Of a stretch of 64,000 bases of DNA, positions 184-19,318 are shown one piece after another. Position 1 is the stretch's first letter, and every line of letters starts with the position of its first letter. This stretch comes from a virus. A program made the position numbers and the translations under genes. The notes below the pieces were generated by a model. It had not been told where the DNA came from. It was given only the letters and a program-made list of their open reading frames with translations, and did no database searches. The stretch spans positions 1 to 64,000 of IMG/VR virus record IMGVR_UViG_3300010413_002950; one strand, given 5' to 3'.

Positions 184-184
184 T

Positions 185-1633: not shown

Positions 1634-1634
1634 T

Positions 1635-2871: not shown

Positions 2872-2894
2872 TTCTACTCCTTACTGCATAAAGC

Positions 2895-3582: not shown

Positions 3583-3934
3583 CTTCATACCCCTTGAGAT
3601 CTCTCTCGACAATTGTCTCTATCTCTTTTATAGCCGAAGTTGACAATTTATCAAGGCTATCTGCTATTTTGAATATGAAGAATAATTCATCTTCTGTTTT
3701 TCTTTTTATCTTTATCCATCCCAACTCTCTTATGGCTGCCCTTATAAGCTTTTCAGAATCAGCGTGTAGCATTTCAGCACATTTCTTTACATCGTCGATA
3801 CGAACTAACGTTCTATTACCATTTTCTATATCACAGATATCTATCACTGTCCGGTCAAGTAAGATAGCTACATCCTTAAGCTTCTTACCTGAAGCAATTC
3901 TTGCTTCTCTAAGTAAATGTCCAAAGGATTTCAT
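3572..3934 (-). CDS. XRE-family helix-turn-helix regulator
   Basis: 120 aa from MKSFGHLLREAR. Residues about 5-65 form a Cro/CI-type HTH (LREARIASGKKLKDVAILLD, then DICDIENGNR). The remaining helical part is probably for dimerisation. It is the only clear XRE regulator in the window, lies at the distal end of the early array, and could control phage or host promoters (inference). Overlaps the DUF5662-like gene by 11 nt. Confidence 0.8.
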   Translation of the reverse strand: MKSFGHLLREARIASGKKLKDVAILLDRTVIDICDIENGNRTLVRIDDVKKCAEMLHADSEKLIRAAIRELGWIKIKRKTEDELFFIFKIADSLDKLSTSAIKEIETIVERDLKGYEDGK

Positions 3935-3965
3935 TTCAGCTACCAATTTACACCCATACTGTATT

Positions 3966-4214
3966 TCAATTCTTTCGTTCAGGAATAGGCTTTTTGAGCC
4001 AAGGAACGGAGCGTGGTTTGTGGACGTGTTCTACTATACCTACGCGCTTCGGATTCCGTAGACACCACGAATTGTCTATTTCTAGAGATCTATATGGCAT
4101 CCAGGCATATAGCGGACAGGTTACAATCTCACAATCCACCATCCCATTAGCATAATAGCCCATACACTCATGACACTTTGCTTTTATTGCATTACCTGGA
4201 GTAGCTTTCTTCAT
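3966..4214 (-). CDS. Cys-rich small protein
   Basis: 82 aa starting at MKKATPG, with GGAGAAAAA just upstream. Contains CHEC, then DC, TCPLY and a later WC: a phage-typical pattern (KAKCxECMG, CxxxxCPLYxW) that probably binds zinc. The start ATG overlaps the TGA of the dTMP kinase gene. Function unknown. Confidence 0.65.
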   Translation of the reverse strand: MKKATPGNAIKAKCHECMGYYANGMVDCEIVTCPLYAWMPYRSLEIDNSWCLRNPKRVGIVEHVHKPRSVPWLKKPIPERKN

Positions 4215-4846
4215 TTTTTCTCCAAAAAAATACAAATATGCTGTAAAATTTCAACAGTAACGGATTCAACATTCTGGCTACCATCAATATGAACGATCCT
4301 CTCAGCAGGAAAATACTGTTCAATATTGGCATAGAATTTGCTTAGCTTCTTCTGAAAAACCAAATTCTCGTATACATCCTTTGGTTTTTTTCTACCCATC
4401 ATTCTTTGAGCAGCTACTTCTGGATCAATATCAAGAACAAATGTGATATCTGGCACTATCGAAAAATACCCAACCTCCTTTATCCATGGTATCCAATCAT
4501 ATGATTCAGGAAAATTTATAGATAATGACTGATAAGCTAAAGTTGAATGATAATAGCGATCGCAAATAACATGATAGCCACCAATCAAATTTGGCTCTAT
4601 TTCTGTTTCAAGGTGAACTAGTCGATCTGCAGAAAACAATAGCGTCATTGCCATCCAAGATGGTTTTTCAGTTCCATCGCCTCTAATGATTTCTCTGATC
4701 ATCCTTCCAATTCTACCATCCGTAGGCTCAAATGTCTGAAACACCTTATGATTATCTAATCGCAATTGTTTAGTAACCAATTGAGCTTGGGTTGAAGTTC
4801 CAGCTCCATCTATACCTTCTAATACTATAAATAATCCTCTTTTCAT
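4211..4846 (-). CDS. tmk: thymidylate kinase
   Basis: 211 aa. Phosphorylates dTMP to dTDP with ATP. The P-loop is GIDGAGTST near the N-terminus, followed by FEPTDG (substrate-side Glu/Pro motif), CDRYYHSTLAYQ (the conserved DR motif) and a lid region rich in Arg/Lys (RMMGRKKPKD). Start at 4846 chosen because TGGAGTAAAA precedes that ATG, rather than the longer start at 4861. With dCMP deaminase (18807) and the ThyA-family enzyme (7147) it completes a phage route from dCMP to dTDP. Confidence 0.9.
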   Translation of the reverse strand: MKRGLFIVLEGIDGAGTSTQAQLVTKQLRLDNHKVFQTFEPTDGRIGRMIREIIRGDGTEKPSWMAMTLLFSADRLVHLETEIEPNLIGGYHVICDRYYHSTLAYQSLSINFPESYDWIPWIKEVGYFSIVPDITFVLDIDPEVAAQRMMGRKKPKDVYENLVFQKKLSKFYANIEQYFPAERIVHIDGSQNVESVTVEILQHICIFLEKK

Positions 4847-4848
4847 TT

Positions 4849-5247
4849 TTACTCCAGCCATGATTCAAAATTATTAATCTGATCAACCGTTGGATGCTTT
4901 TTGCCATCAAAACAAATGCAACGATCATCAATAGATACAAAGGCTACAGGCTTAGTAAACGGAAATTCGATCTTCTCAAGCTCTTTCTCTGTCATGCCAT
5001 TAGCTAATAGCCATTGCCTCATAGCTATATGCCCATCCTTGTATTTAGATCTATAGCTATAGATCTTTACTGTTAAATTCTTACTAGCCACTAGCTCTTT
5101 TAGCCAATCGATAGCTCCAGCTACAGCAGGACCAGTTACTTTGTTATGGCCTTGCCATTCATTCTTCGTATAATCATGTAATACTCCATCGAAATCAACA
5201 CACACAACCTTAATACAATCATCTTTCCAATTATAATTACCAACCAC
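4849..5247 (-). CDS. HAD-superfamily phosphatase-like protein
   Basis: 132 aa with HAD motif I (CVDFDGVLHD), a motif II-like Ser (YSYRSK), a Lys before FVSI, and the DDR segment as motif III/IV. Small cap-less HAD proteins in phages are often nucleotide or polynucleotide phosphatases; the substrate is unknown here. The start is GTG at 5247, decided by a strong GGAGG five bases upstream. Neighbours are nucleotide-metabolism genes. Confidence 0.75.
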   Translation of the reverse strand: MVGNYNWKDDCIKVVCVDFDGVLHDYTKNEWQGHNKVTGPAVAGAIDWLKELVASKNLTVKIYSYRSKYKDGHIAMRQWLLANGMTEKELEKIEFPFTKPVAFVSIDDRCICFDGKKHPTVDQINNFESWLE

Positions 5248-5248
5248 A

Positions 5249-5437
5249 CTAACCTCCTAGCTTATTCAAAAAATATGAAGATATAAAAAACAAAATTATC
5301 ATTCCAACTATCAGCTTTATCATGAAGATAGCAAAATTCAACATGATACCGGGTATCAAAAAACAGAGGGCTAAAAATGTTAGTATAGCCATTATAGCTG
5401 TAGCCTTAGCTGTTAAGTTATTTCCGTAGATCTGCAT
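5249..5437 (-). CDS. small membrane protein, two helices
   Basis: 62 aa from MQIYGN (GGGAG and GGA signals upstream). Two hydrophobic stretches (IMAILTFLALCFLIPGIML and FMIKLIVGMIILFFISSYFL) predict two transmembrane helices with a short hairpin. Could be holin-like or an exclusion factor, but it is not next to the endolysin; function unknown. Confidence 0.6.
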   Translation of the reverse strand: MQIYGNNLTAKATAIMAILTFLALCFLIPGIMLNFAIFMIKLIVGMIILFFISSYFLNKLGG

Positions 5438-5714
5438 TTTTCCAATTCTCCCAACATTCATCGCACACTATAGAAGATATCGGTCCCGTGCAACTTGGAT
5501 CATGATATTCAATTGGTGGACAAATCTCATACTCTTTAGCCTCATCGCATACCCATTTTAGCTTATCCATCATAATTTGCAAATTGCCAATTAGCCACCA
5601 TGCTTCATAAGCGCTTAACCGCTGTGGCTCAGGAAAGTCATGAATAGCCTGTGTCTTAAGCTTATGAATGATTTTCTCTAGCGTATTGCTAAAAGTTGGG
5701 GACGATTTTTCCAT
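5418..5714 (-). CDS. hypothetical protein, 98 aa
   Basis: Start supported by AGGAGCAATA before ATG. Five cysteines, including CDEC near the C-terminus and C/C pairs around CPP and PSC, suggest metal binding. Overlaps the membrane-protein gene downstream by 20 nt. No family recognised. Confidence 0.6.
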   Translation of the reverse strand: MEKSSPTFSNTLEKIIHKLKTQAIHDFPEPQRLSAYEAWWLIGNLQIMMDKLKWVCDEAKEYEICPPIEYHDPSCTGPISSIVCDECWENWKNADLRK

Positions 5715-5919
5715 TATTGCTCCTATATCCAGATACTATTTCTCTAATAAGAATCTCATCTCTGCAAACTATAGATTCAACTTCTTCTTCTGTAATACTG
5801 CAATCTTCACAAGTATGTTGCCCCGTTATAACCACGCCACCATAACTTGCTATATAGCTAATACTTATAGGAATTTTTCGCTTATGCTTATTGCTATATA
5901 GCTCAATTGTTTTTCTCAT
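5689..5919 (-). CDS. hypothetical protein, 76 aa
   Basis: Start MRKTIELYSN at 5919 is preceded by AAAGG at 7 nt; upstream in-frame GTG/ATG at 5937/5934 are less well placed. Beta-rich N-terminal half with a CEDC pair. Overlaps the next gene by 26 nt. Function unknown. Confidence 0.55.
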   Translation of the reverse strand: MRKTIELYSNKHKRKIPISISYIASYGGVVITGQHTCEDCSITEEEVESIVCRDEILIREIVSGYRSNNGKIVPNF

Positions 5920-5933
5920 TTCAATACCTTTCA

Positions 5934-6026
5934 TCACTCATGGTTCATTAGCCAATACATTAGATAGAATCCTGCAGATACAGTAAGGACAAAGGCTAAA
6001 TAAGCCCAAAACAAATAGCTAAACAT
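5934..6026 (-). CDS. 30-aa single-helix membrane peptide
   Basis: Tiny ORF preceded by GGAGAGAAA and ATG. Nearly all of it is one hydrophobic helix (FWAYLAFVLTVSAGFYLMYW). It sits in a tight array between two other small genes, and its good ribosome-binding site argues that it is translated. One of several membrane microproteins in this genome. Confidence 0.5.
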   Translation of the reverse strand: MFSYLFWAYLAFVLTVSAGFYLMYWLMNHE

Positions 6027-6037
6027 TTTCTCTCCAA

Positions 6038-6214
6038 TCAATATGATACTCCACCAGATTTCTCTGAAGTTGGTTTCTCTATAGGCTCATCTGTAAAATT
6101 GCTACAGCTATTATTTTTATCAAATGCCACTATTCTTATTCCTCTAAGGCCACATTTCTGATTTGTGCATTTTTCGCAAAGTGTTTTCTTGTAGTATACA
6201 TCATCGTACATCAT
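6038..6214 (-). CDS. 58-aa Cys-containing protein
   Basis: ORF starts with an ATG overlapping the TGA of the upstream gene (ATGA). The N-terminal half contains CEKC and NQKC, and later NSC, a likely zinc knuckle. Stop is 12 nt before the next small gene. Not recognised. Confidence 0.5.
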   Translation of the reverse strand: MMYDDVYYKKTLCEKCTNQKCGLRGIRIVAFDKNNSCSNFTDEPIEKPTSEKSGGVSY

Positions 6215-6588
6215 TTAGCAAATCTACCATTGTCAAAAAGATAGACGGGTTTCTCTAGCTTTTGCATTTCTTCTATCATATTCTTAGTTCCCTTACTTTT
6301 GCCGTCCCAAATTGCTATTAGCACATCAGCATATTCAGCCATTTGCTGATTCCTGATTCGTCCAGCTCTATTGCCAAATAACAGCCAATCTTCATTGGTA
6401 AGATAGAATGGCTTGATCGGCACTCCATAGCTTTTAGCCCATTTCTCACCTAGCTTATCAACGCCGATAGCTCCACCGCTAACAACTTCGGTGATATCTA
6501 CCCTATAGTATTTTATAGCCCTGCCTATCAGCTTCTTTACAAGAAGATAATCATTTATAGTTCTAGATCCGGCTATTATTGTTTTCAT
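6211..6588 (-). CDS. SLOG-domain (YspA/DUF2493-like) protein
   Basis: 125 aa. Begins MKTIIAGSR and has the Rossmann-like SLOG signature VVSGGAIGVDKLGEKWA, then RNQQMAEYADVLIAIWDG, as in the DUF2493/YspA family related to DprA and LOG. The family binds nucleotide-derived ligands; in phages the role is unknown, with proposed links to signalling by nucleotides in defence and counter-defence. Start has AGAGGG seven bases upstream. Confidence 0.8.
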   Translation of the reverse strand: MKTIIAGSRTINDYLLVKKLIGRAIKYYRVDITEVVSGGAIGVDKLGEKWAKSYGVPIKPFYLTNEDWLLFGNRAGRIRNQQMAEYADVLIAIWDGKSKGTKNMIEEMQKLEKPVYLFDNGRFAK

Positions 6589-6953
6589 TTGCCCTCTGTA
6601 AAATGCTCAATTACTTTATCTAGCCTTTTAGTAAATTCTTCAACAGCTTTATCAGCATTTTTAGCCGTAACAAGTTTGGCTCCTTCTTGTATCATGTAAG
6701 CCTTAACTATATCGTCTCTTGTTAGGACTAGAGAACACAATACAGACATAAAAACTGCTACAATTACACAATTCTTAACTAAATTAGCGAGTTTTCTTAC
6801 ATTTGTTCTAAATTCTTCATTTACATCTTTATCGAAAGATATGCAAAATAGTATTACAGCAACAATGCCAAATATAATTGCTGAAGTAATAGCTGAGACA
6901 AACAGGTCACTTATGTTGTCAATTATTGATAACAGATATAATTCTAAATTCAT
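6585..6953 (-). CDS. two-helix membrane protein, 122 aa
   Basis: Two hydrophobic segments (SAIIFGIVAVILFCI near residue 30 and NCVIVAVFMSVLCSLVL near residue 65) separated by a charged loop, then a charged helical tail. Start preceded by AAAGGATTTGCT. First gene after the largest non-coding gap of the early region, with a small GC-rich hairpin just upstream of its ribosome-binding site. Confidence 0.6.
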   Translation of the reverse strand: MNLELYLLSIIDNISDLFVSAITSAIIFGIVAVILFCISFDKDVNEEFRTNVRKLANLVKNCVIVAVFMSVLCSLVLTRDDIVKAYMIQEGAKLVTAKNADKAVEEFTKRLDKVIEHFTEGK

Positions 6954-6968
6954 AGCAAATCCTTTCGG

Positions 6969-6987
6969 AGCCCCGTATCGTGGGGCT
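6969..6987 (-). promoter_or_regulatory. hairpin in the 6954-7146 leader gap
   Basis: AGCCCC and GGGGCT (6969-6974 and 6982-6987) can pair as a 6-bp GC stem with a 7-nt loop. It ends a few bases before the AAAGG ribosome-binding site of the 122-aa gene on the transcribed strand. No U-run follows, so it is not a standard terminator; an mRNA-stability or translation-control hairpin is more likely. The surrounding 193-nt gap has no convincing gene, only a short direct repeat of ATTGCACC near 7118-7132. Confidence 0.35.
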
Positions 6988-7146
6988 GACGGTGATGAAA
7001 AAGCAGTTCGACCAATATATTGTGTTATGTCTAGTGAATATTTAGGCTATCGCTCCTTGCATATGGTAATGAAAAAAAACATAGATCTGAATCATCACGT
7101 TCAGTTCAGCTAACACATTGCACCATTGCACCATGCTAGATGAAAT

Positions 7147-8109
7147 TTATGGCAAATAACCTTTCTCAAAATCATGAAGTAAATACTCTATATCTTCAAC
7201 AATATAATTTGGAAATTTCCATTCTTCAATTTTCTTCTTAGTTAATAGCTCTTCTAGTTGTGGGATAATTAGTAGATCTCTAGCTTGCTCACTAGTTAGC
7301 GATCTCTTCAAGATGGTTTCTTCATCGAAATTATCGAAAAAGCTTTTGATTCCATTTTCTTTATCGCCACCAACTGACACAAAATCCTGGCCGTAGATAT
7401 GCAATGAACCAGAATAATCAGCGTAACTGCCAACACGCCTCTTCTTGCTATCGATGTTGTAAAGCCATTGTGCAATTTTCTTTTGCAAAAAAGTCATAGC
7501 TATTACGTTATCACACCATGCTTTATATAAATCTCTAGATCTCCAGAATGAATTCATATTGAGATACTGCTGATTTCCATCTTCAAGACACCTAAGCTGA
7601 ATTTCCCGTAAGCATGGTATATCTTCTTTAAGATAGCAATCCACATTAGGCATAGCAGTTGTAGCTACAGCTCTTCTAGAATGTGGCGTTTCAGAAATTC
7701 TCTGCATTGCCATAAACATTTGGTTAACACCCGTATTGTTTTTCGGATAGCTAAATAGCCTTTGGTGATAAGTATAGGGCCATTCTCTAGCTGTTAGATC
7801 CTTATCCATTAGCCTTTCTACGGGAACTACAAAATGATCCTTAATTCCTAGCATTTCAGCTATGTAAACACCAATCTCGCAAAATGAAACAGGTGGGAAT
7901 CTAGGCTCATTAAGTGGATCTGTTATCTCTATTAGTACCCTGGCATCCCTACTTGGAGGATCAATATAATTACCATCAGAATCTTTACGATCATACTCTG
8001 TTCTTATCTCTACGCCATTTTCCCAAACGGCTTTCATAGCTCTATAATAAGCTAATGGTATACAATCTGCAACCACATGTAATGTTGGGATTCTAGTATT
8101 ATTTTTCAT
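7147..8109 (-). CDS. thymidylate synthase family enzyme
   Basis: 320 aa. The ThyA-fold signature is visible: catalytic Cys166 in IPCLREIQ, phosphate-binding Arg in FWRSRDLY (about 190-192), Asn201 in WCDNVIAM at the position of the ThyA pyrimidine-selecting Asn, and SGSLHIYGQD near 240. Retention of this Asn suggests a dUMP rather than dCMP substrate (inference). The layout is the diverged archaeal/phage type rather than E. coli-like. It would use dUMP made by the dCMP deaminase (18807) and feed dTMP to the kinase (4211). A dUMP hydroxymethylase cannot be excluded. Good start: AAGGAAGAAAG before ATG. Confidence 0.82.
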   Translation of the reverse strand: MKNNTRIPTLHVVADCIPLAYYRAMKAVWENGVEIRTEYDRKDSDGNYIDPPSRDARVLIEITDPLNEPRFPPVSFCEIGVYIAEMLGIKDHFVVPVERLMDKDLTAREWPYTYHQRLFSYPKNNTGVNQMFMAMQRISETPHSRRAVATTAMPNVDCYLKEDIPCLREIQLRCLEDGNQQYLNMNSFWRSRDLYKAWCDNVIAMTFLQKKIAQWLYNIDSKKRRVGSYADYSGSLHIYGQDFVSVGGDKENGIKSFFDNFDEETILKRSLTSEQARDLLIIPQLEELLTKKKIEEWKFPNYIVEDIEYLLHDFEKGYLP

Positions 8110-8311
8110 CTTTCTTCCTTTTAGCTGGAACTGTTGAAATTGAACATCTATGGATTCTTACTTCTGGCAAATTAGCTTTAGCTGGTGGCACCATGCAAGG
8201 AGTTATTATATCCTCTACTTCGTAAGCTTCATAAACATAATTTGGCAATATCCTTGGAGCATGACATAGTATTTCCCAGATATCCAATTCCTTCATGACA
8301 TATACTAGCAT
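8099..8311 (-). CDS. hypothetical protein, 65-70 aa
   Basis: In-frame ATGs at 8311 and 8296 (MKELDIWEIL); neither has a strong Shine-Dalgarno sequence, so the start is uncertain. Overlaps the thymidylate synthase gene by 11 nt. Short basic C-terminus (PAKRKKDEK). Not recognised. Confidence 0.5.
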   Translation of the reverse strand: MLVYVMKELDIWEILCHAPRILPNYVYEAYEVEDIITPCMVPPAKANLPEVRIHRCSISTVPAKRKKDEK

Positions 8312-8314
8312 ATA

Positions 8315-8590
8315 CTACACTGGATCTTCAAGCTGTTTTTGCAACAATTTTTCACTTTCTTTTCTTCTCTTAGCTGGCTGCATACCTTTATGCAAATAGC
8401 AATACTTTCTATTAGATCCAGAAACAAGTGTTTCATTACAGCCATCAACACCACATTTAATAGTTTTAGCTTTTTGTTCTAATCGTTTCTTCTTTCTTCT
8501 GCAATCTTTACAAGTCGGAAATCTAGCTTTACTTTTCTCTATCCAAGTATTACAAACTATACAAACATGCATCTCCTTATCTTCTATCAT
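8315..8590 (-). CDS. double zinc-finger-like protein, 91 aa
   Basis: Two Cys clusters: CIVC with CKDC (residues about 9-33) and CGVDGC with YCYLH (about 46-67). Each fits a small zinc-binding module, with a basic linker (RRKKKRLEQKAK). Nucleic-acid binding is plausible. The start ATG overlaps the stop of the upstream gene, with AGGAATG as ribosome-binding site. Confidence 0.6.
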   Translation of the reverse strand: MIEDKEMHVCIVCNTWIEKSKARFPTCKDCRRKKKRLEQKAKTIKCGVDGCNETLVSGSNRKYCYLHKGMQPAKRRKESEKLLQKQLEDPV

Positions 8591-8865
8591 TTCACATTCC
8601 TATAGATTTTTCTGCCCTTATATGATTTCCGCTTCTTTCTTCCTGGCATTGACCAATCTAGCATTAGCTTACCGCTACCAGCTCTTCTTTTTATATTGGC
8701 TGGAATTTTATAGCCAGATTGCATTTTCTTCTTAAAAGCGTATCTATCTTTAGCATTCAGCGATACCCAATAGCGCTTTAGCCATTTGTAAACAGCTTTC
8801 ATAGAATGATCTGGTATGAACTTATCTACGTACTTCTTAATCACTTTTGCATTTGTTGTGTTCAT
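8587..8865 (-). CDS. basic protein, 92 aa
   Basis: Very basic (many Lys/Arg, C-terminus GRKKRKSYKGRKIYRNVK), which suggests nucleic-acid contact. GAGGGAAGT precedes the ATG. Lies between the methyltransferase and the zinc-finger-like gene with 4-nt overlaps on both sides. No family recognised. Confidence 0.6.
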   Translation of the reverse strand: MNTTNAKVIKKYVDKFIPDHSMKAVYKWLKRYWVSLNAKDRYAFKKKMQSGYKIPANIKRRAGSGKLMLDWSMPGRKKRKSYKGRKIYRNVK

Positions 8866-9434
8866 ACTTCCCTCAATACATCTCTAATATCTCTACCATC
8901 AATCTCATAGCCCACAGCATCCCAGCCATCAGCAACTTCTCTTGCAAATAGCTCTAGCTTATCCTGAGAAGGAAACATATTAGTAATTCTATCTCTAATT
9001 TCTACTGGCTTAGCTGAATGCTCTCCCCTCAATTCTGAATAGAACTGTCTCTCATTTCTAGAACCACGTGGCGTAGGAATCTTTCCGCGTTTTGCTACAT
9101 AGCAGGTTTCGATCTGTGATAGCGTATAATATCCAGGATTCGTTCTCTGCTTATCCCACTGGAAAGCATCACGCTTATACTCAAAGCCCCAAGCTTTTAT
9201 CACATCTAGCCCATCTAACAATATAGGACCAGGTATCCAGATAAACAGCAAAGCATTCTCCTTGCTAATTTGCTGTATTGGCAAATCAGCTATTTCTTTT
9301 TTGGTCATTGTTAGATAATGCTTAATTGCTCCACCAGTATCTACACCTACATCTCCAGCAAATCCAAATTGCTTTCTCCCTCGGTAAAACCAAGGAGGAT
9401 CTGCGTAGATAATATCATATTTTTTCAAATCCAT
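8862..9434 (-). CDS. MT-A70 family adenine methyltransferase
   Basis: 190 aa. The catalytic DPPW tetrad is at residues 12-15 (IIYADPPWFYRG), followed by FIWIPGP, AWGFEYKRDAFQW and the HSAKP and LELFARE segments typical of the MT-A70/IME4-like N6-adenine methyltransferases found in phages. It probably methylates phage DNA (protection from restriction or regulation); target sequence unknown. No partner restriction enzyme is seen nearby. Confidence 0.88.
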   Translation of the reverse strand: MDLKKYDIIYADPPWFYRGRKQFGFAGDVGVDTGGAIKHYLTMTKKEIADLPIQQISKENALLFIWIPGPILLDGLDVIKAWGFEYKRDAFQWDKQRTNPGYYTLSQIETCYVAKRGKIPTPRGSRNERQFYSELRGEHSAKPVEIRDRITNMFPSQDKLELFAREVADGWDAVGYEIDGRDIRDVLREV

Positions 9435-9637
9435 CCGTTTGTCCTAGCTAACCAAGAAGTAACTATCAAAGTACCAGTATGCCCAATTCCAAAAACTTCA
9501 GAATCATCATCAATTTGCGACACTGGAATCCAAATTGGCTCATCAAAAATATCTGCTTCTACAAGAATTGCTTTCTGTGTTTCTTGCAACACTTCACAAT
9601 TCTCTATCTCAAATGTTTTATCGTAATCGTCTGACAT
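9425..9637 (-). CDS. hypothetical protein, 70 aa
   Basis: Beta-strand-rich small protein (CEVLQETQKAILVEAD, IWIPVSQI, GTLIVTSWLA) with the character of a small SH3/OB-like barrel often found in phages. Overlaps the methyltransferase by 10 nt. Function unknown. Confidence 0.6.
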   Translation of the reverse strand: MSDDYDKTFEIENCEVLQETQKAILVEADIFDEPIWIPVSQIDDDSEVFGIGHTGTLIVTSWLARTNGWI

Positions 9638-9640
9638 ATA

Positions 9641-9862
9641 CTACTCACTGGGCCAAATTTGTTTACCATCGAAATCCTTAAGGTGTACACCAAATTCATT
9701 AAATATGTCAACTATTTTAGGATTATTCAAGCTAGCTAAAGAAGCTATAACAGCTAACATAGCTGGACTTGTACCAGGTTGCCAAGATATTACGTGTTCC
9801 TTACCATCGATTTCTATATTTGCAGTACTTACCGGTATCTTTTTATAATGCTGTTTTCTCAT
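9641..9862 (-). CDS. hypothetical protein, 73 aa
   Basis: GAGGTAAAA precedes the ATG. Contains VISWQPGTSPAMLAVIASLA and NEFGVHLKDFDGKQIWP; no recognised family. Small soluble protein, overlapping the upstream gene by 20 nt. Confidence 0.6.
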   Translation of the reverse strand: MRKQHYKKIPVSTANIEIDGKEHVISWQPGTSPAMLAVIASLASLNNPKIVDIFNEFGVHLKDFDGKQIWPSE

Positions 9863-10193
9863 TTTTACCTCTAAAAATTCTTCTGAAAAATCGCTTTACA
9901 GATCTCCAAAATGTATCTTCAGTATAAACCATATTACTGGGATTCTCACACTCTTCAGCTGCCACAACCCACTGTCCATCTTTCTCAATAGCTATAAGCA
10001 AATAGAAGGGAATCTGATCTCCATCTTTTACAACCTTAAAGCATTTAGATATAGCTAAATATTCTATTGTTCTTTTGCAATAATCTCTTTTCACATCTAG
10101 CACTATGCAATTACCAAAATACCTGTAAAGAGCTTCTTCATGCTCATTGATCATGTCCATTGTAAGCATGAATCTACCAAGCCTTTTAACCAT
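9843..10193 (-). CDS. hypothetical protein, up to 116 aa
   Basis: Alpha/beta protein with a basic C-terminal tail (SVKRFFRRIFRGKNEK). The ATG at 10193 overlaps the stop region of the upstream gene; downstream Met codons (10169 and 10160) are possible starts. No recognised motif. Confidence 0.55.
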   Translation of the reverse strand: MVKRLGRFMLTMDMINEHEEALYRYFGNCIVLDVKRDYCKRTIEYLAISKCFKVVKDGDQIPFYLLIAIEKDGQWVVAAEECENPSNMVYTEDTFWRSVKRFFRRIFRGKNEKTAL

Positions 10194-10500
10194 TGGTTTC
10201 TTCTTTCTTGAATTCTTTTTTCAGCAATTCGCTATAATACTTAACAGCTTCTTCTTCAGATTGATTGTATCTACCGCAAGGAACATTCTCTGCTATTTCA
10301 TCCAATTCAGCTTCAACTAAAGCATTAACTAGAGCTACCTTGGGAGCTTTATGTGGCGATCTATAATCATGAAATTCAAACTTCATAATTCTGACAACTA
10401 AATCGTATACATCATCAAGCTTTCTAACCCTCATGATATCTTGCAATAAGTTGTCTGTGCCCTCATCAAAACCAGATTTTAAAGTATCTTCAGCTTTCAT
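10186..10500 (-). CDS. hypothetical protein, 104 aa
   Basis: Helical acidic protein (MRVRKLDDVYDLVVRIMKFEF, VNALVEAELDEIAENVPCG). The start has AGAGAAGTAG upstream and overlaps the stop of the 51-aa membrane peptide gene (ATGA). No known domain. Confidence 0.6.
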   Translation of the reverse strand: MKAEDTLKSGFDEGTDNLLQDIMRVRKLDDVYDLVVRIMKFEFHDYRSPHKAPKVALVNALVEAELDEIAENVPCGRYNQSEEEAVKYYSELLKKEFKKEETNG

Positions 10501-10652
10501 CTACTTCTCTTTCTGTTTATTTTTTTAAGCAACCATTCTCTATCCATTTTCCCATCTTTATAACCCTTAGCATACATAAAGTCGGCTAAAACAAAACCGC
10601 TTATTTGCAAAAAAAGAAGAAATAAACAAATCGCTTTAACGCTAATACACAT
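10497..10652 (-). CDS. 51-aa exported or membrane peptide
   Basis: Preceded by GAGGTTTGAAG. Begins MCISVKAICLFLLFLQISGFVLA, a signal-peptide or single-anchor segment with a possible cleavage site at VLA, followed by a basic soluble tail (YAKGYKDGKMDREWLLKKIN). The stop overlaps the next start. Short, but well supported by spacing and start signal. Confidence 0.5.
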   Translation of the reverse strand: MCISVKAICLFLLFLQISGFVLADFMYAKGYKDGKMDREWLLKKINRKRSR

Positions 10653-10654
10653 CT

Positions 10655-11050
10655 TCAAACCTCATACGGTACTAAGCTATGGGAAACATCTGTATAGCTT
10701 AATTTTTTAGGCTTGTAAAAGCATTCTATCACTTCAATTATTTTAGTTATTTCAAAATCCCTACATGAAAACATATTGATGATCGCATACCCTCTATGCG
10801 GCCATGTATCTATAGCTGCATGAGACGTAGATAAAACAGCTATACCAGAAATACCTTCTGGTTCATCTTTATCAGGAGCAACCAGTCTAGCCTCCAATTC
10901 TTTTCTTATATTGTATACATGCAACCCAAGAATTCGCATACCAGCTGCTCCCACAGACTCTTTAAGAAAATTAGAAGCTATAACTTCATCCTTGAGCAAT
11001 TCAAACTTCACACCATAAATCTGAATTATGACATGCTTACCGTATTCCAT
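10655..11050 (-). CDS. SpeD-like pyruvoyl decarboxylase homologue
   Basis: 131 aa, the length of a class 1 S-adenosylmethionine decarboxylase. The signature LSTSHAAIDTWPHRGYAIIN (73-92) with FSC (94-96) aligns with the family pattern LSESHxxIHTWPExGYAAxD and FTC. By alignment Ser76 would become the pyruvoyl group after self-cleavage and Cys96 matches the conserved acid/base Cys. The His needed for self-processing in classical enzymes is Asp81 here, and the residue before Ser76 is Thr rather than Glu. The enzyme could decarboxylate AdoMet (spermidine synthesis) or another amino-acid substrate, or be unprocessed. No speE-like partner is present. Confidence 0.75.
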   Translation of the reverse strand: MEYGKHVIIQIYGVKFELLKDEVIASNFLKESVGAAGMRILGLHVYNIRKELEARLVAPDKDEPEGISGIAVLSTSHAAIDTWPHRGYAIINMFSCRDFEITKIIEVIECFYKPKKLSYTDVSHSLVPYEV

Positions 11051-11754
11051 TAGCTTATTAATTCCTTAAAATCAATTATCTTCAATCCACGGTGCAGTTT
11101 TTGCTGATATAGATAAGTCTGATCAAATTGGATAATGCCATCAGCCACAGCGTAGAAGCCCCTGTACTCTTTCCATCCAGAAAGCCTTTCTCTTTCAACT
11201 TGTAAATCTATTCCCTGCAAAAATCTAATTCCTGCTTCTCTATAGGATTGAAGCAATTGGTTATTTTCATTGCCACCTGGCAAATATACTATCTCTTCAG
11301 GAACAAAGCAACCGAAGATCTCACCAACTGGAATTCTGCCTTTGCCACCACAAGTTCTACATGGGCTAATAGCTCCTATCTTATGTTCTTCTTTCCAGAA
11401 TTTGTGCCAGCTTTGCCTTCTAAGCTTTATGTATTTGCAATAATCCCATCTCACCCCATCTACAACAGCCCAACCACCAGTAGCTTTCTCGACCGTTCCT
11501 AGCCCCTTGCATTTGGCACATACTTCATACCGTCCTTTACAAAAAGAGCACTCCTGAGCCACGCTACAGGCAAAGCAATGGCTAAAATGTCCGTTATTAT
11601 GAACTAAATAGATACAGCTATCTTCCTTAGCTAATTTTGCAGCCATTCTAAAATTGATAATTCGCTTTGAAACCCCCATCTCCTTAGCTTCAGCTATAAA
11701 GCTACCTATTGTTGGATAATGAAAAGTTGAAACCCATTGCAAATACTCTTTCAT
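11050..11754 (-). CDS. DnaJ-type zinc-finger protein
   Basis: 234 aa. The middle carries CFAC, CSFCKG, CAKCKGLG and, after about 50 residues, CRTCGGKG: CxxCxGxG-like repeats as in the DnaJ cysteine-rich domain. The N-terminal region (YPTIGSFIAEAKEMGVSKRI) matches a phage protein type with an N-terminal helical domain. No J-domain, so it is not a full DnaJ. The role could be protein folding or nucleic-acid binding. Shares a boundary with the SpeD-like gene. Confidence 0.65.
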   Translation of the reverse strand: MKEYLQWVSTFHYPTIGSFIAEAKEMGVSKRIINFRMAAKLAKEDSCIYLVHNNGHFSHCFACSVAQECSFCKGRYEVCAKCKGLGTVEKATGGWAVVDGVRWDYCKYIKLRRQSWHKFWKEEHKIGAISPCRTCGGKGRIPVGEIFGCFVPEEIVYLPGGNENNQLLQSYREAGIRFLQGIDLQVERERLSGWKEYRGFYAVADGIIQFDQTYLYQQKLHRGLKIIDFKELIS

Positions 11755-11981
11755 CTATTTACATTCCTTATGCTAGCTATGTCTGCTACTTCTACAGATC
11801 CACATATCTTTTCACCATAGTAGACTATAGCCGGTAGATCTTCGATCCAGCCAACATCATCCATCCTGATCTTTACTTCTTGAGATTTCACGCCAGTAAT
11901 TTTGTCTATTACCCTATCGCCATTGGTTTTTCTAATTTCGCACACTTCCCCTATGAAGTGCTCTAGTGTATCAAGTAGCAT
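11751..11981 (-). CDS. small beta-rich (Sm-like?) protein, 76 aa
   Basis: Reads as five short beta strands (VCEIRKTNGDRVIDKITGVK, EVKIRM, AIVYYGEKICGSVEVADIASI), a pattern that could fold as an Sm/SH3-like barrel. AGAGGAATAAC precedes ATG. Function unknown; the fold assignment is inference only. Confidence 0.55.
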   Translation of the reverse strand: MLLDTLEHFIGEVCEIRKTNGDRVIDKITGVKSQEVKIRMDDVGWIEDLPAIVYYGEKICGSVEVADIASIRNVNR

Positions 11982-11982
11982 G

Positions 11983-12294
11983 TTATTCCTCTATTAATTT
12001 CACCAAATCTTCCAATGAAACAAACCTATCAACACAAAGTGGCTTATTTTGCAATTTGTAGCCATTAGAAATATAATATGGGTTATTATGATCAGAGTAT
12101 TTGTCCCAACACAGATAGAATTTACCACATTCTATTTTGCTATAATCAGAATCATGACAATTCCACTTTAGCTTTCTTGCTATTTGTTGATTCTTTAAAT
12201 TCCACTCTTCTGGGACTCCATAAAGCTCATCTTCAATTTTGTCTATTACTTCTTGACGATCTTCTTCACAGTCAAATGCGCCATCTTTACTCAT
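11983..12294 (-). CDS. hypothetical protein, 103 aa
   Basis: Preceded by GAGGAATGAGTAA. Acidic N-terminus (DGAFDCEEDRQEVIDKIEDELYG) and aromatic middle (CHDSDYSKIECGKFYLCWDKYS). Soluble, not recognised. Almost adjacent (no gap) to the glycosylase gene upstream. Confidence 0.6.
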   Translation of the reverse strand: MSKDGAFDCEEDRQEVIDKIEDELYGVPEEWNLKNQQIARKLKWNCHDSDYSKIECGKFYLCWDKYSDHNNPYYISNGYKLQNKPLCVDRFVSLEDLVKLIEE

Positions 12295-12909
12295 TTACTC
12301 ATTCCTCTCTATATAGCTAGCATCCTGGCTTATTTCCATAACCTTCCTTATATCAGATATTACCAATTGTTCAAGCTCTGGCTTTCGGTTTCTTAGCAAG
12401 AATGCTGGATGGAAAGTTGGAATAGCATGATACTGCTGTAGCTTATTCTTCCATTTAAATTCAACATTTAGAATTTTTCCACGATCTTTAGCTATTCCTT
12501 CTTTTCTACCTTTTACAAGATAGCTAAGAGCTATACCGCCTAATAGTAATAAGGCTTTAGGTTTCACAATTGATATCATAGCATATAATCTACTTTTGCA
12601 AGACCAGAATTCTTCTAAAGATGGATTTCTGTTATTTGGTGGCCTGCAGCCAACAACATTAGCTATAAAGATCTTGCTACTTTTCAATCCAGCTAATTTG
12701 CGCAATTTGTTAAATAGCTTTCCAGATTGATATACAAATTGTTCACAGTTTTCATTTATACCTGCATCTGGAACATCGCTTATAACCATAACCCTAGCAT
12801 CTAGGCTACCGCGATAAAAAACAACATTTGAGCGTTCTTCACACAATTCACATTTAGTGCAATCTTTCCATTTAGCTCTTAGCTTGTTGATCTTTTGCTG
12901 TTTATTCAT
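12295..12909 (-). CDS. family-4-like uracil-DNA glycosylase, divergent
   Basis: 204 aa. Four Cys in the family-4 iron-sulfur arrangement are present: Cys17, Cys20, Cys88 (NVVGCRPPNNRNP) and Cys104 (WSCKSR). HPAFLLR at 167-173 matches the family motif HPAYLLR. The usual GEAPG motif is replaced by SDVPD (44-48), and the following GxPFVG by CEQFVYQSG, so specificity or activity may differ. A uracil glycosylase encoded beside dUMP-generating enzymes could limit uracil in phage DNA or attack host DNA; the substrate is not certain. Confidence 0.75.
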   Translation of the reverse strand: MNKQQKINKLRAKWKDCTKCELCEERSNVVFYRGSLDARVMVISDVPDAGINENCEQFVYQSGKLFNKLRKLAGLKSSKIFIANVVGCRPPNNRNPSLEEFWSCKSRLYAMISIVKPKALLLLGGIALSYLVKGRKEGIAKDRGKILNVEFKWKNKLQQYHAIPTFHPAFLLRNRKPELEQLVISDIRKVMEISQDASYIERNE

Positions 12910-12912
12910 TAG

Positions 12913-13164
12913 CTAATACTCACCAGAACCAAAATCGCCTAAATATACGGGTTGGGGTTTTGGCTTATCTGGAAGTTGACGCAACGATTGATAATATCTT
13001 TTACCATCTGCAGTTTGGCAATAACAATCTAATGCATTATGGGAAAACACAAAAGCACCAAGCATATAACATTCTGATTTACACCTCTCACACCAATAAT
13101 TTTCTTCACCACTACAATTAATTGTAAAACATAAAACAACCAATATTGCTAAAATAATCTTCAT
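12913..13164 (-). CDS. secreted Cys-rich small protein
   Basis: 83 aa. N-terminal signal peptide (MKIILAILVVLCFTINC) followed by CERCKSEC and CYC, likely disulfide- or metal-bound. NC is not a good lipobox, so soluble periplasmic export is more likely than lipidation. AAAGGTGAAAA precedes ATG. Role unknown; exported phage microproteins often act in exclusion or lysis. Confidence 0.6.
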   Translation of the reverse strand: MKIILAILVVLCFTINCSGEENYWCERCKSECYMLGAFVFSHNALDCYCQTADGKRYYQSLRQLPDKPKPQPVYLGDFGSGEY

Positions 13165-13177
13165 TTTTCACCTTTAT

Positions 13178-13516
13178 TCATTGGTTAACCGCCTTCCACC
13201 ATTCTCTTACCATGTCGAAGAAATCTTCCAACCGCATAGCTACAAAAGCTTCAGCTCGATCATCTCGGATAATAGCTATAGGTATCTTACCTTTAGGTGC
13301 AGATTCAATAGCTTGTTTCAAAGCAGCTCTAGGATTAGGCTTTTTGCCACGCTTCAGCTCAGGCCAGAAGATAGGGCAATCTACGTCAGGAACTTCTTGC
13401 CCACTTCGATACTGAATACCTCTCTTGATTTCAGCTCCAGGCATAACTTCTCGAAAGCGATGAACCAATTCTCTTTCATAATTATGGCCCTTACGCCTTG
13501 AACCCTTGCCATTCAT
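13178..13516 (-). CDS. PD-(D/E)xK nuclease, Holliday-junction-resolvase-like
   Basis: 112 aa, basic N-terminus ([17 protein letters not shown]) with a motif-I Glu, then [19 protein letters not shown] giving the PD and E-L-K catalytic elements. This is the Hjc-like layout used by phage junction resolvases. It would process recombination or replication intermediates made by RecA and SbcCD. Overlaps the next upstream gene by 4 nt. Confidence 0.75.
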
Positions 13517-13995
13517 TTCTTCAAAAGCCTTTTAGCTATTCCATTAAAACCGCGCATTAATGTGTCCATATGTTTTTCTACGGTTTCAATCCTATTGCTT
13601 AATTCTTTTACTTTATCAAACATCTGTTTAGCATCATCTTCATCAAAAATTGTCATAGTGGTAGAGCATTTGCAACCATGCTTTTCTTGCTGCGGCTGAA
13701 TATCCTTCTTCTTTTCAGACTTAATTAGGTTCACCATGTCTTCAGCTGTTACGCCTTTTAGCTCTTCAATTTCAGCTCTCTGCTTATGCACATAGCCAAG
13801 TAGCTGATCATGGTTCATTGCCGGCAATTCTTCTAATGACTTATCTGTTCTTGATTTCTCTACAGATAGAGCCTGAGTTAATTGAAATGGCTCACTTCGA
13901 TACATTGGATGAAACCAAAATTCGCCTTTTTGCTGCCAACCGCCACCAGTAAGGATATTTTCTATTTCTTCAGCTGTTTTCTTTATTACTGTCAT
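13513..13995 (-). CDS. coiled-coil protein, 160 aa
   Basis: Start at 13995 chosen because AGGTGAAAGA directly precedes that ATG. The N-terminal third ([23 protein letters not shown]) resembles a small alpha/beta module; a CKC pair lies near residue 115, and the C-terminus is coiled coil ([22 protein letters not shown]). It sits between the resolvase and SbcC-like genes, so a recombination role is possible but unproven. Confidence 0.6.
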
Positions 13996-14003
13996 TCTTT
14001 CAC

Positions 14004-15893
14004 CTACGCAGAACACCCAACAGTAGATGCTCCATCTTCCTTGGTTATAGTTATTACTTTATCAAAAAATGCTTCAGTTAGTCCTGCTTCATGGGTTATT
14101 ACTAAAATACTAGATCTCTCTTGCCGTAATTCAGATAGCAAATCTATTACTCTGTTTACTCCCTCTGCGTCAAGTCCATCTAGCACCTCATCCATAAGCA
14201 AAATATCCAGATCGCTATCTTCTCTGGTAGCTACCAGATCCATAAGAGCCAAATCAGAAGCTATGTCTAATTTCTTTTTCTGTCCTGAGCTTGGAGTAGC
14301 TCCAGGTATACCTTCTATCACGAGAGCTATGTTAATTTCATCTCTCAAATCCTTTTTGCTTTTTAGCTCTTTCTGTGTGGTTATATCTACTACTATATCT
14401 CCATCTGTAAGCTTTCGCAAATAATGGTTCATCTGCTGTGTCAAATAAGCCATTACAGAGTCGAGCAAAAGCGAAGGTAGTCCTTGACCTCCAAAGCCAC
14501 TTACCCAAAAATTTAGTAGATTTGACTCATGTCTAGCGGCTTTAAACGCCTGTTTGGAGTTGGCTATCAATTGTTCAAATTCCTTTTGCTTATTTTTAGC
14601 ATTTTTGAGCTGATCTATGTATGGATTTGTAGCTTTCTGTAATCTTTTTGCCTTATCCAAATAGCCCCTTGCTTTCTCCTTCAACACGGCTACTTGCTTC
14701 TCGGCTTCAGCTGCTAGACTATCAAGCTGTCGTTCTAATGAGTTTTTAGTATTTGTGTTATTTTGCAGTTCTGTTGAAACATGTCTCAATTCATTAAGCT
14801 GTTTCTCAATAGATCTAACCCTATTCTCTTGAGCTGATAGCTTCTTCGATAGCTTTTGCTTTTTAGCTATTAGCTGTTTCTTAGTGGCTTCTTGTTGTTG
14901 CTTATATTCAAGACCAGCTCCAGCATTCAAGGGCGATTTACATACAAAGCATTCATCGCCTTCTAGATTCTCTAGGATATCATCTACGGCATAGATATCA
15001 CGGTTAATAGCTTTACTATCAGCTAATAGCTCTGGATATCCTCTTGACTCTACTTCTTTCTCTTCTTCCAGATTCTTCTTCTTTTCTAGCAATTTCTTTT
15101 GTTCTTCAATTTCTTTATCTATAGATGTAATCCGATCTTCTAGTTGTTGTCTTTTATTATCATCTACGGCTACAGACTTAGATTCTTCTATAAGCCTTTT
15201 AGCTTCAGCTACAGCTTCTTCAATATCTGCTTTATTGCCTTCTAGCCAGGTATCTTTTAGCTCTTTCAATTTGTCGATTCCCAAATCGCCAATTCGCTGT
15301 GTAGCTATAGCCATATCATTTTCTAGATTCTCAAGTTGCTTTTCTTTTTCAGAATGCAATCTTCTAGCTTCTTTTTCGGCTTTACGGTAGATCTCCGTTC
15401 TAAGGATACGATGCAACATCTCTTTCCGCTGTGTATCTGTAGCTGAAAAGAAACGACTAATGTTACTGCCTTGACCATACAGAATAGAATTGCAAAAGCC
15501 ATTGAAATCAAGACCTAATAGATCTATAACCTTCTGCTGTGGCTCATCTTGCCATTCTACATCATTCTTTAGAAGGGTGAACAGTGGCTTCTTTTTCAGT
15601 CTTTCTCTCTTTACCTTCCAAGTGTTTTTGCCATCTTCTATGTGCAATTCAACATATGCACTTTTAGCCCCATATCTAATAACCTCATCATATTTGTCTT
15701 TATCAAGAGTATCATGGTAGAGGCACCAGGTAATAGCTTTAAAAATTGTAGTTTTGCCAGAGCCATTTGATATAGCTGCATCTGAATCCCTGTTCTGCCC
15801 TACTATCTGAACAAGGCCAATATCCTTTAGATTTAGATCAAGCTCCTTAATACAGCAAAAGTCTTTAGCTATCAATCTTGTAAGACTAGGCAT
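14004..15893 (-). CDS. SbcC/Rad50-like ATPase (T4 gp46-like)
   Basis: 629 aa. Walker A (NGSGKTTIFKA) near residue 44, long coiled coil with a zinc-hook CFVC near 314, ABC signature TPSSGQKKKLDIA near 530, Walker B LLMDEVLDGLD near 570 and a final VITH. With the SbcD-like subunit encoded immediately upstream (8-nt overlap) it should form a DNA-end resection complex as T4 gp46/gp47 does, making 3' tails for RecA. Short for bacterial SbcC but typical of phage versions. Confidence 0.92.
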   Translation of the reverse strand: MPSLTRLIAKDFCCIKELDLNLKDIGLVQIVGQNRDSDAAISNGSGKTTIFKAITWCLYHDTLDKDKYDEVIRYGAKSAYVELHIEDGKNTWKVKRERLKKKPLFTLLKNDVEWQDEPQQKVIDLLGLDFNGFCNSILYGQGSNISRFFSATDTQRKEMLHRILRTEIYRKAEKEARRLHSEKEKQLENLENDMAIATQRIGDLGIDKLKELKDTWLEGNKADIEEAVAEAKRLIEESKSVAVDDNKRQQLEDRITSIDKEIEEQKKLLEKKKNLEEEKEVESRGYPELLADSKAINRDIYAVDDILENLEGDECFVCKSPLNAGAGLEYKQQQEATKKQLIAKKQKLSKKLSAQENRVRSIEKQLNELRHVSTELQNNTNTKNSLERQLDSLAAEAEKQVAVLKEKARGYLDKAKRLQKATNPYIDQLKNAKNKQKEFEQLIANSKQAFKAARHESNLLNFWVSGFGGQGLPSLLLDSVMAYLTQQMNHYLRKLTDGDIVVDITTQKELKSKKDLRDEINIALVIEGIPGATPSSGQKKKLDIASDLALMDLVATREDSDLDILLMDEVLDGLDAEGVNRVIDLLSELRQERSSILVITHEAGLTEAFFDKVITITKEDGASTVGCSA

Positions 15894-16956
15894 TTTTCAC
15901 ACTTTCTAATAGCTGTTTGCCAACTTTAGCTAATTGCTTTTTATCCAATTCTGTATTTGAGATATTGATGTATTCTTTCATAGCTTGCAAATAATCTATT
16001 GGCCCATTTGTTTTTAGCCTTACAGAGTGATCGCTTACAGGTATATGTTGATAGAAGAGGTGAATACCGTCTTTCTGAAATGGCTCGTAGAATTTCTTAG
16101 CTTCTTCAAGTTTTGTCTTGTAAGCAGAATGAGTACACTCCAACTTTATTCTAACATAATCGTTTTTAATTGGCTTATTGTTATGTCCATTGATCCCATC
16201 AAATTGAAAAAATTCTGGAGCCACGATTGATTTATCTTCAAATTCTACCTTGCTATCATCAAACCTACCAATAACCACTCGCCTTTCTTCTCCAGCATCT
16301 CCAAAATCTTTTTGCATTGGAGCACCTATATACATGCCATGGTTAAATTCTTGTGGGCTATGGAAGTGACCAGCTAAATAGATATGATCTCCAAATTTGC
16401 TAGGGTCAATTCCTTCATCGGCTACCCAAGAGCTATTTAGCCTACAGCCTATAACCGATTGATGAAGCAAAACTACATTTTTATTACTAGGATCAAATTG
16501 AATTTGGCTAAGAGCTTCATTAGTTTTATCTATTGGCATCCAAGGAATAGGATGAAAAGTTACATTTTTTGCAACTATTATTGAGCTATGATCATTACCA
16601 AGAACAGTAATATCAGATTTATCTTCTAATCTTGAAAAGAAATCAACAGCATAATGCTGAGCCTTAGAATTCTTAGCATCATGGTTGCCAGGCAAAATGT
16701 AAACAGTAGTTGCTTCTGCCAATTGCATAATAGCAGCTAAAGCATATTGCAAGGTGATAGCGTCCAATATGCTTTTATCAAACATATCGCCTAATATGAA
16801 TATAGCATCTACTTCTTTAGCTTCAGCTATATTGCCGATTTGCTCAATCATGTTTAGCTGATCCTTGAAGCGATCTGTTATGCCGTTTTCATCTGGCACC
16901 GCATAAGGCCATGAATTGCTTAGATGCCAGTCTGCTGTAAATAAAGCTTTATACAT
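15886..16956 (-). CDS. SbcD/Mre11-like nuclease (T4 gp47-like)
   Basis: 356 aa. Metallophosphoesterase motifs in order: ADWHLSN (8-14), GDMFDKS (about 56), GNHDAKN (about 92), LLHQS and AGHFHSPQ (about 200). This is the nuclease subunit partner of the downstream SbcC-like ATPase, with which it overlaps by 8 nt. GGATTGTGTA precedes the ATG. Acts on DNA ends in recombination-dependent replication. Confidence 0.9.
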   Translation of the reverse strand: MYKALFTADWHLSNSWPYAVPDENGITDRFKDQLNMIEQIGNIAEAKEVDAIFILGDMFDKSILDAITLQYALAAIMQLAEATTVYILPGNHDAKNSKAQHYAVDFFSRLEDKSDITVLGNDHSSIIVAKNVTFHPIPWMPIDKTNEALSQIQFDPSNKNVVLLHQSVIGCRLNSSWVADEGIDPSKFGDHIYLAGHFHSPQEFNHGMYIGAPMQKDFGDAGEERRVVIGRFDDSKVEFEDKSIVAPEFFQFDGINGHNNKPIKNDYVRIKLECTHSAYKTKLEEAKKFYEPFQKDGIHLFYQHIPVSDHSVRLKTNGPIDYLQAMKEYINISNTELDKKQLAKVGKQLLESVKNA

Positions 16957-17669
16957 TACACAATCCTTGGCTTTTCCTTGAATATTTCAAACATTTTACA
17001 TAATTTTACATATTCTTCAACTATTTCATCACAGATTTCAGATAAATCTCTATAAGATGTGTCTATAACTATAGCATCTTTGGGACATTTCAATGGAGCT
17101 ACTTTTCTATGGCTATCGTTCCAATCTCTTTTACCAATATCTATTAGCACATCTTCATAATTAACTTCTTGTCCCATCTGCTTTAGCTCTCTGGTTCTAA
17201 CTGCAGCTCTGAATTCTATGGTAGCATCTATATAGAATTTGAGATCAGCTTCTGGGGCTATTACTGTTCCAGTATCTCTACCTTCAAGAACTACATTGCC
17301 AGCTTCAACATATCTTTTCTGAATGCCAAATAGAAATTCTCTTACTTCTGGAATTGCCGATAGATCAGAAGCTATACGTGAAACTACATTATTATCCAAT
17401 TCATGTGTTCTATCCCTATCATTTACAAAAAATTTATTACAACCATCAACAGAAACAGTTTTAATTTCTACATGTTTCAATTCGTTTATAATCTCGCATT
17501 TAGTAACTTCATCTGTATACATATGGTTACTTCTAAAGTATACCGCCAAAGCTCGATACAGCTTACCTGTTTCAAGCAATAGCATTCCAAGCCTTTCAGC
17601 TAGCATCCTGGCAAGTGTTGTCTTTCCAGCCCCAGAAGGACCATCTAATGTTATTACTATATTTTTCAT
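16956..17669 (-). CDS. cmk: cytidylate (CMP/dCMP) kinase
   Basis: 237 aa, close to bacterial Cmk length. P-loop LDGPSGAGKTTLAR, then LETGKLYRAL (TGxxYRA motif of cytidylate kinases), LEGRDTGTVIAPEADLKFY and a DWNDSHR-KVAPL lid equivalent (family RDxxDSxRxxxPL). Phosphorylates CMP and dCMP, supporting dCTP supply. Overlaps the radical-SAM gene upstream by 4 nt. Less common in phages than thymidylate kinase. Confidence 0.9.
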   Translation of the reverse strand: MKNIVITLDGPSGAGKTTLARMLAERLGMLLLETGKLYRALAVYFRSNHMYTDEVTKCEIINELKHVEIKTVSVDGCNKFFVNDRDRTHELDNNVVSRIASDLSAIPEVREFLFGIQKRYVEAGNVVLEGRDTGTVIAPEADLKFYIDATIEFRAAVRTRELKQMGQEVNYEDVLIDIGKRDWNDSHRKVAPLKCPKDAIVIDTSYRDLSEICDEIVEEYVKLCKMFEIFKEKPRIV

Positions 17670-18382
17670 GCTCTGATCCTTTCAAGCGTTGCATAATATT
17701 CTCTAAGGCAATTGCCACAGAATTTACAAGCGTGGGTATCAGCATCTCTACCACAAGTATAGACATATGGATTATGCTTGTATCTACTGTAAACTTCGTC
17801 CCAACCTTCTTGGGTTATAACCCAGTAGCTATTTAACGTTCTTTTTCTATAGCTATAATACTGCTTATGCTCTTTGGGTATGGTTTCTGTGTAGTAAGCC
17901 ATAAAAGTTAAAACTACTGTGACATCTTTAGCCGTATAATGCGCAACTGCATCATTGATAACCCTTATGTTCCAGCAATTAGCTCTAACCCTTACAAACA
18001 TTAAATTCTCTGGAATTGGATCCAGCAAATGAGCAGTACAATCAGTCATTTTGCCAGGGTTAACTGTAAGAACCACAGGATCTTTAAAATGTTTTAGGTT
18101 TTTCGATATAGATGTATTGTAAAATACATTTGCGTAATCTTCTGTGGCTTCACGAACAAGAAATGGTTCATTATTGCTATCGTTACCATCATTAACACGA
18201 ACAATCCTATTAACCGTATCTTCCAGCTCTGGCATGTTTGGTAAATTTTCTTCAAGTGGTTCAAGATATGATCTACCACTTTGAAAGAAGCAATCATCAC
18301 AACCTACAGGGCATTTTCCAGTTTGCGGAATACAGCAAATTATCCCACTGCCCTTAGTTTTTGGATTTTCTATATAACTCAT
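17666..18382 (-). CDS. radical-SAM-like iron-sulfur protein
   Basis: 238 aa. Cys24, Cys28 and Cys31 (KCPVGCDDCFF) form the CxxxCxxC motif that binds the 4Fe-4S cluster used for S-adenosylmethionine cleavage. A second cluster of cysteines (Cys210, 219, 222, 225, as CKFCGNC) at the C-terminus could hold an auxiliary cluster. The middle is alpha/beta (VVLTVNPGKMTDCT, LMFVRVRANCW, VTVVLTFMAYY), consistent with a partial TIM barrel. Substrate unknown. A small conserved phage protein is encoded just upstream. Confidence 0.75.
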   Translation of the reverse strand: MSYIENPKTKGSGIICCIPQTGKCPVGCDDCFFQSGRSYLEPLEENLPNMPELEDTVNRIVRVNDGNDSNNEPFLVREATEDYANVFYNTSISKNLKHFKDPVVLTVNPGKMTDCTAHLLDPIPENLMFVRVRANCWNIRVINDAVAHYTAKDVTVVLTFMAYYTETIPKEHKQYYSYRKRTLNSYWVITQEGWDEVYSRYKHNPYVYTCGRDADTHACKFCGNCLREYYATLERIRA

Positions 18383-18701: not shown

Positions 18702-18703
18702 AA

Positions 18704-18799: not shown

Positions 18800-18806
18800 A
18801 GCTACC

Positions 18807-19316: not shown

Positions 19317-19318
19317 AG

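Follow-up and report, generated by a model that had tools for sequence, protein, structure and literature searches.

The question raised by this locus is whether a phage-encoded SpeD-like protein, in which the histidine of the self-processing site is occupied by aspartate, may act on a changed substrate, as an initial annotation of the sequence had suggested, or has lost its activity. The DNA analysed (the window) comprises the first 64,000 bases of the 90,087-base virus record IMGVR_UViG_3300010413_002950, and the features discussed below are listed in Table 1.

The phage SpeD-like gene and its neighbours

The SpeD-like ORF begins with ATG and runs without interruption, and its ATG overlaps the stop codon of the upstream gene by one base. 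The product matched the Pfam superfamily profile AdoMet_dc (PF02675) at 75.7 bits (E 4e-21; cut-off, 25) and NCBIfam TIGR03330, the equivalog for Bacillus-type SpeD, at 73.6 bits, just below the cut-off of 75.65. The closest solved structures were the SpeD enzymes of T. maritima and Aquifex. An AlphaFold2 model (input, 20 sequences; pLDDT, 95.2) superposed on T. maritima SpeD at 1.7 Å rmsd with TM scores of 0.75-0.85, consistent with the SpeD fold. The protein is thus a phage-encoded class-1b SpeD (AdoMet_dc) homologue with the SpeD fold. The loop ahead of its processing strand, to which the initial annotation did not refer, is about 13-14 residues longer in the alignments than that of canonical SpeD, and is so throughout the clade described below.

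Table 1. Coordinates in the window of the SpeD-like gene, its codons of interest, and the adjacent genes
Feature	Position	Strand	Basis
SpeD-like ORF, 131 aa, AdoMet_dc fold, STSH clade	10655..11050	(-)	ORF list, Pfam, alignment, model
Protein of 234 aa containing four CxxC pairs; lies immediately upstream of the SpeD-like gene	11050..11754	(-)	ORF list, gene order
76-aa protein; a comparable small gene occupies this position in L087 and L132	11751..11981	(-)	ORF lists, by eye
Extra loop, approx. residues 48-60, clade-wide	10871..10909	(-)	Alignments
Ser76 codon TCT, predicted pyruvoyl-forming serine; preceded by Thr75 (ACG)	10823..10825	(-)	Sequence, alignments
Asp81 codon GAT, at a position otherwise invariably His; differs from CAT by one base (C to G)	10808..10810	(-)	Sequence, alignments
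Asn92 codon AAT, replacing a nearly invariant Asp	10775..10777	(-)	Sequence, clade columns
Cys96 codon TGT, conserved catalytic cysteine	10763..10765	(-)	Sequence, family alignment

The CxxC protein had no match in Pfam, and its structure prediction was not dependable (one good model of five). Homologues of it immediately precede the SpeD-like gene in the contigs L132 (4176-4856) and L087 (5143-5892; the contig carrying the SpeD-like protein L007), and another lies at a non-adjacent position in L142 (1136-2020). The gene order around the SpeD-like gene, including the CxxC gene and other phage genes, is common to the window, L087, and L132, which indicates related phages, with G+C contents from 37% to 70%.

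Elsewhere in the window, a weakly thymidylate-synthase-like protein is encoded at 7147-8109 (-) (Pfam, 28 bits), and the phage also carries genes for thymidylate kinase, cytidylate kinase, dCMP deaminase, a UDG-family protein, and an MT-A70 methylase. From this set of nucleotide genes, the phage perhaps has altered DNA bases; the idea that the thymidylate-synthase-like gene points to DNA hypermodification was examined and rejected, since none of the genes was recognisable as a base-modifying kinase or transferase. A helicase with an internal intein-splicing domain is encoded at 37410-39752 (-).

Processing-site residues and the STSH clade

On alignment with Thermotoga SpeD, STSHAAIDTWPHRGYAIINMFSC of the phage protein formed the aligned core, and Ser76 corresponded to S63 of the T. 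maritima enzyme, Thr75 to E62, Asp81 to H68, His85 to E72, and Cys96 to C83 (numbering of S63, H68, and C83 from PMC10407285; E62 and E72 derived from the alignment). The residue states given in the initial annotation were confirmed throughout: the STSH signature with Ser76 is intact, Asp81 stands at the position of the processing His, Thr75 at that of a Glu, and His85 at that of the Glu of WPE (the phage protein having WPH), a ribose-binding position by analogy (PMC1282579). In the self-processing triad S63/H68/C83, Ser and Cys are therefore present and His is Asp. A further replacement, absent from that annotation, is at Asn92, where the [AVI]D[VLI][FY][ST]C strand nearly always has Asp. The strands of the model span residues 77-83 and 88-95, from which residues 81 and 92 are expected to face the same side of the hairpin, and the exchange of His/Asp for Asp/Asn would avoid two adjacent carboxylates.

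Relatives were sought in viral contigs with the phage protein as a single sequence, which gave no close ones, and then with an alignment, which retrieved L007 (about 53-54% identity; 91.7-kb contig). Searches with L007 and with a clade alignment retrieved L132 (48% identity to the phage protein; 91.6-kb contig), L088, L089, L134, L136-L138, L140-L142, and others. No near-identical phage was found in these searches, and megablast of positions 1-20000 of the window against the phage collection gave no relatives. The STSH clade so assembled, with its longer loop, consists of about a dozen phage contigs and one myxococcal chromosome (the Myxococcales MAG contig L095, where the neighbouring genes are SpoVR, DUF444, and an enoyl-reductase-type gene). 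Among 284 genomes of its phylum, the STSH form occurred in this MAG only, the best other matches inspected being canonical (ESH), and the genome also encodes another SpeD, of canonical type (132 bits). The whole clade has Thr ahead of the pyruvoyl Ser, and WPH is common to the phage protein and its two nearest relatives, L007 and L132, the residue after WP in the other members being L, A, Q, or E. In trees, the clade was placed outside the canonical SpeD clade (support, 100/99), and its joining with the pelagiphage ADC group lay at the edge of rejection (AU p, 0.0505). The end branch of the phage protein (0.63) was longer than those of L132 (0.56) and L007 (0.36), though not extreme.

Within the clade, the SpeD-like ORF of L138 (5001-5486) has about 35 additional residues, inserted in frame immediately ahead of the STSH motif. 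Genes for 7-deazaguanine lie near the SpeD-like gene in L134 (3035-4978; GTP cyclohydrolase I, QueC, and a radical-SAM QueE-like gene) and in L088 (84-1734; QueC and a PTPS/QueD-type gene). Close to its end, the phage record L098 encodes two long proteins of ADLxx pentapeptide repeats (2418-3218 and 9241-9948), and the strands opposite these genes likewise yield long repetitive ORFs.

When SpeD-family sequences were aligned to the family profile, His occupied the processing position in 237 of 239 distinct sequences, many of the loci having been fetched through His-containing patterns; Asp was found in the phage protein only, and the one gap belonged to an insertion-bearing fragment. His was present in all 31 loci from myxococcal genomes (a subset not chosen by a His pattern), in 19 of the 19 rows with the region aligned in the clade-search set (fetched partly through the Cys strand), and in all clade members whose alignment covers the region. 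DNA patterns that placed Asp, or any codon with a first base other than C, at the His position gave no match in 2.9 million viral contigs, and the His-bearing pattern in the same context gave at least 120 matches in viral contigs; a looser pattern gave 24 matches, with SpeD at one locus only (L296), which bears His. Of the 16 columns without variation among 11 clade relatives, the phage protein breaks two, by H81D and D92N, and no further one, and each of the 11 relatives breaks at most one invariant column, never that of H81 or D92 (the 'D92N' of L141 is its own residue 92, in a different column from Asn92 of the phage protein). Judged from the sequences collected, the His-to-Asp replacement is particular to this phage, and Thr75 and WPH are not. 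With H81D and D92N alone broken and overall divergence moderately raised, the losses are located at the active site and not spread over the protein.

Consequences for processing and substrate

During AdoMetDC processing, the catalytic Ser is believed to give up its alpha-proton to the His (PMC1282579); S63, H68, and C83 were named essential for self-processing in T. maritima SpeD, and were expected by Li et al. to be conserved across SpeD, SpeDA, and SpeDC (PMC10407285). In the human enzyme, the H243A mutant (PDB 1jl0) gives a self-processing ester intermediate, according to a reference title in PMC12467396; the same entry was among the fold matches of the model. From these residues, Asp81 more likely signals an impaired self-cleavage, either blocked or slow, and the phage protein is probably inactive or re-purposed as an enzyme, rather than adapted to a new substrate. 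The preferred reading, held with about even confidence, is that of a recently disabled pseudoenzyme with a preserved fold, derived from the phage SpeD-like (STSH) clade. The fold, the clade, the residue states, and the breaking of these two clade-invariant positions alone are shown by the data, and the following course is proposed from them. The ancestral STSH-type protein was most likely a self-cleaving, pyruvoyl-dependent decarboxylase, and the base completing self-cleavage would have been lost in this phage lineage by H81D, together with the neighbouring D92N. Without the His, the Ser76 ester intermediate would not be efficiently beta-eliminated, little or no pyruvoyl group would be formed, and the protein would remain an uncleaved or ester-stalled proenzyme devoid of decarboxylase activity.

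Against a pseudoenzyme stand the intact Ser76, Cys96, and remainder of the strand, which a dead enzyme need not keep, the ability of Asp to act as a base, and the possibility that D92N is a compensation tuning a working site. The alternative of a still-active pyruvoyl decarboxylase, in which Asp81 (with Asn92) abstracts the proton and the clade acts on an amino acid or other substrate instead of AdoMet, was retained because the Asp/Asn pair would avoid two carboxylates and leave an adjusted active site; a double change from His/Asp to Asp/Asn resembles adjustment more than decay, and both Ser76 and Cys96 are intact. SpeD homologues have become ornithine or arginine decarboxylases, those of phages included (PMC9992855, PMC10407285), a precedent rightly named in the initial annotation. 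Thr at P1 and a non-Gly residue after the catalytic Cys co-occur in non-canonical sequences, including pelagiphage ADCs such as the proven HTVC201P, and a second, canonical SpeD in the same genome, as seen with L095, is a criterion for neofunctionalised SpeDs in PMC10407285. On the other hand, the proven ADC HTVC201P carries ETSHIAFHSWDE, with His present, and every other family sequence examined that covers the position has His; since His is kept in HTVC201P and in all close relatives, its loss is not how SpeD proteins changed substrate. SpeDA is marked by loss of an AdoMetDC-conserved proline (PMC10407285), whereas the phage protein and its clade keep the proline of WP, if this is that of the published logo, and of the SpeDC-diagnostic Gln, Thr, Phe, and Tyr (PMC10407285), Thr is present and the other three are apparently absent in the columns taken to correspond. 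The link of the STSH clade to the ADC/ODC branch is weak, as given by the AU value above. Moreover, phiN3, with its odd motif, is a proven AdoMetDC (PMC9992855) and yet falls in the ADC/ODC-like branch of the tree, so that motif reading alone cannot decide the substrate. A still-active decarboxylase of this kind is accordingly regarded as possible but doubtful. Of the changed substrate originally suggested, the part that stands is that Thr75 and the lost WPE Glu fit a changed pocket; both are features of the clade or of near relatives, and the His-to-Asp replacement lends it no support.

Spermidine synthase (SpeE) and the arginase/agmatinase families were not recognisable in the 90-kb phage record; whatever the protein produced would need to feed into pathways of the host. 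Class-1b SpeD functions as a dimer, which favours a prozyme-like subunit, remaining uncleaved and pairing with a host or other SpeD, whose activity it would increase or block while the infection runs. The kept fold with lost catalytic residues, the missing SpeE and arginase-family genes, and the prozyme-containing entries among the fold matches of the model agree with such a role, as does the precedent of trypanosomes, in which a catalytically dead AdoMetDC paralogue, kept for its fold (PMC5201418), activates its partner (PMC5201418, PMC6221367). It is nevertheless unlikely, the partner being hypothetical and the full catalytic set being kept in the relatives. Either retention of activity on some substrate by an Asp/Asn pair replacing His/Asp, or a phage prozyme controlling a host polyamine decarboxylase, is entertained tentatively. 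It is most improbable that the protein is an ordinary AdoMetDC that tolerates His-to-Asp and, like the enzymes of many cyanophages, provides decarboxylated AdoMet for spermidine: the fold and family match, the abundance of phage AdoMetDCs (PMC9992855), and the bona fide activity of phiN3 despite its divergent motif agree with it, but the His is named essential, the WPE Glu is missing, and the protein lies outside the canonical clade at the support given above. It is very unlikely that the true phage has His like L007 and that an error of sequencing or assembly produced the Asp; both changes are of a single base (CAT to GAT; GAT to AAT) in a single metagenomic record, but there are two separate ones, and both keep the frame of an intact ORF. 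The observation of the initial annotation was confirmed and sharpened, and the meaning proposed for it was partly supported.

Two further arrangements of SpeD genes were observed. In the Microcystis phage MaAM05 (L093, 483-2309), a canonical SpeD, a divergent SpeD homologue, and SpeE follow in a row, the divergent copy being a candidate arginine or ornithine decarboxylase. In the faecal contig MT839461 (L006, 304-1971), which may be bacterial rather than phage, one 555-aa ORF joins a branched polyamine synthase domain of BpsA type with a complete AdoMet_dc domain.

Significance and comparison with known systems

Because His is invariant in all other collected SpeD-family sequences covering the position, the natural Asp variant provides a ready test of whether self-processing can be completed by another base. 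The STSH clade, mostly phage-borne and apparently uncharacterised, deserves assays more than the single Asp-bearing protein; it represents a further branch beside the published phage ODC and ADC enzymes, with catalytic residues intact in the relatives and the substrate unsettled.

The phage protein resembles T. maritima SpeD (TM0655; class 1b, PDB 1tlu/1vr7) in fold, pyruvoyl Ser, catalytic Cys, and the TWP motif, and differs from it in His to Asp, E62 to Thr, E72 to His, Asp to Asn, and the longer loop. L007 and L132 share its motif and loop, and their contigs its gene order, whereas these and the other STSH-type homologues, L095 included, all keep the His and the conserved Asp. SpeDA and SpeDC (HTVC201P, a Lake Baikal phage, and others) are likewise phage-encoded with a non-Gly residue after the catalytic Cys, and HTVC201P also has Thr before the pyruvoyl Ser; those examined keep His, whereas the phage protein has Asp, keeps WP, lacks the QxIxTS glutamine of HTVC201P, and forms a separate branch in the trees. 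By analogy only, the Trypanosoma brucei prozyme is similar in combining the AdoMetDC fold with lost catalytic residues, but it is a eukaryotic duplicated form whose partner has been shown experimentally.
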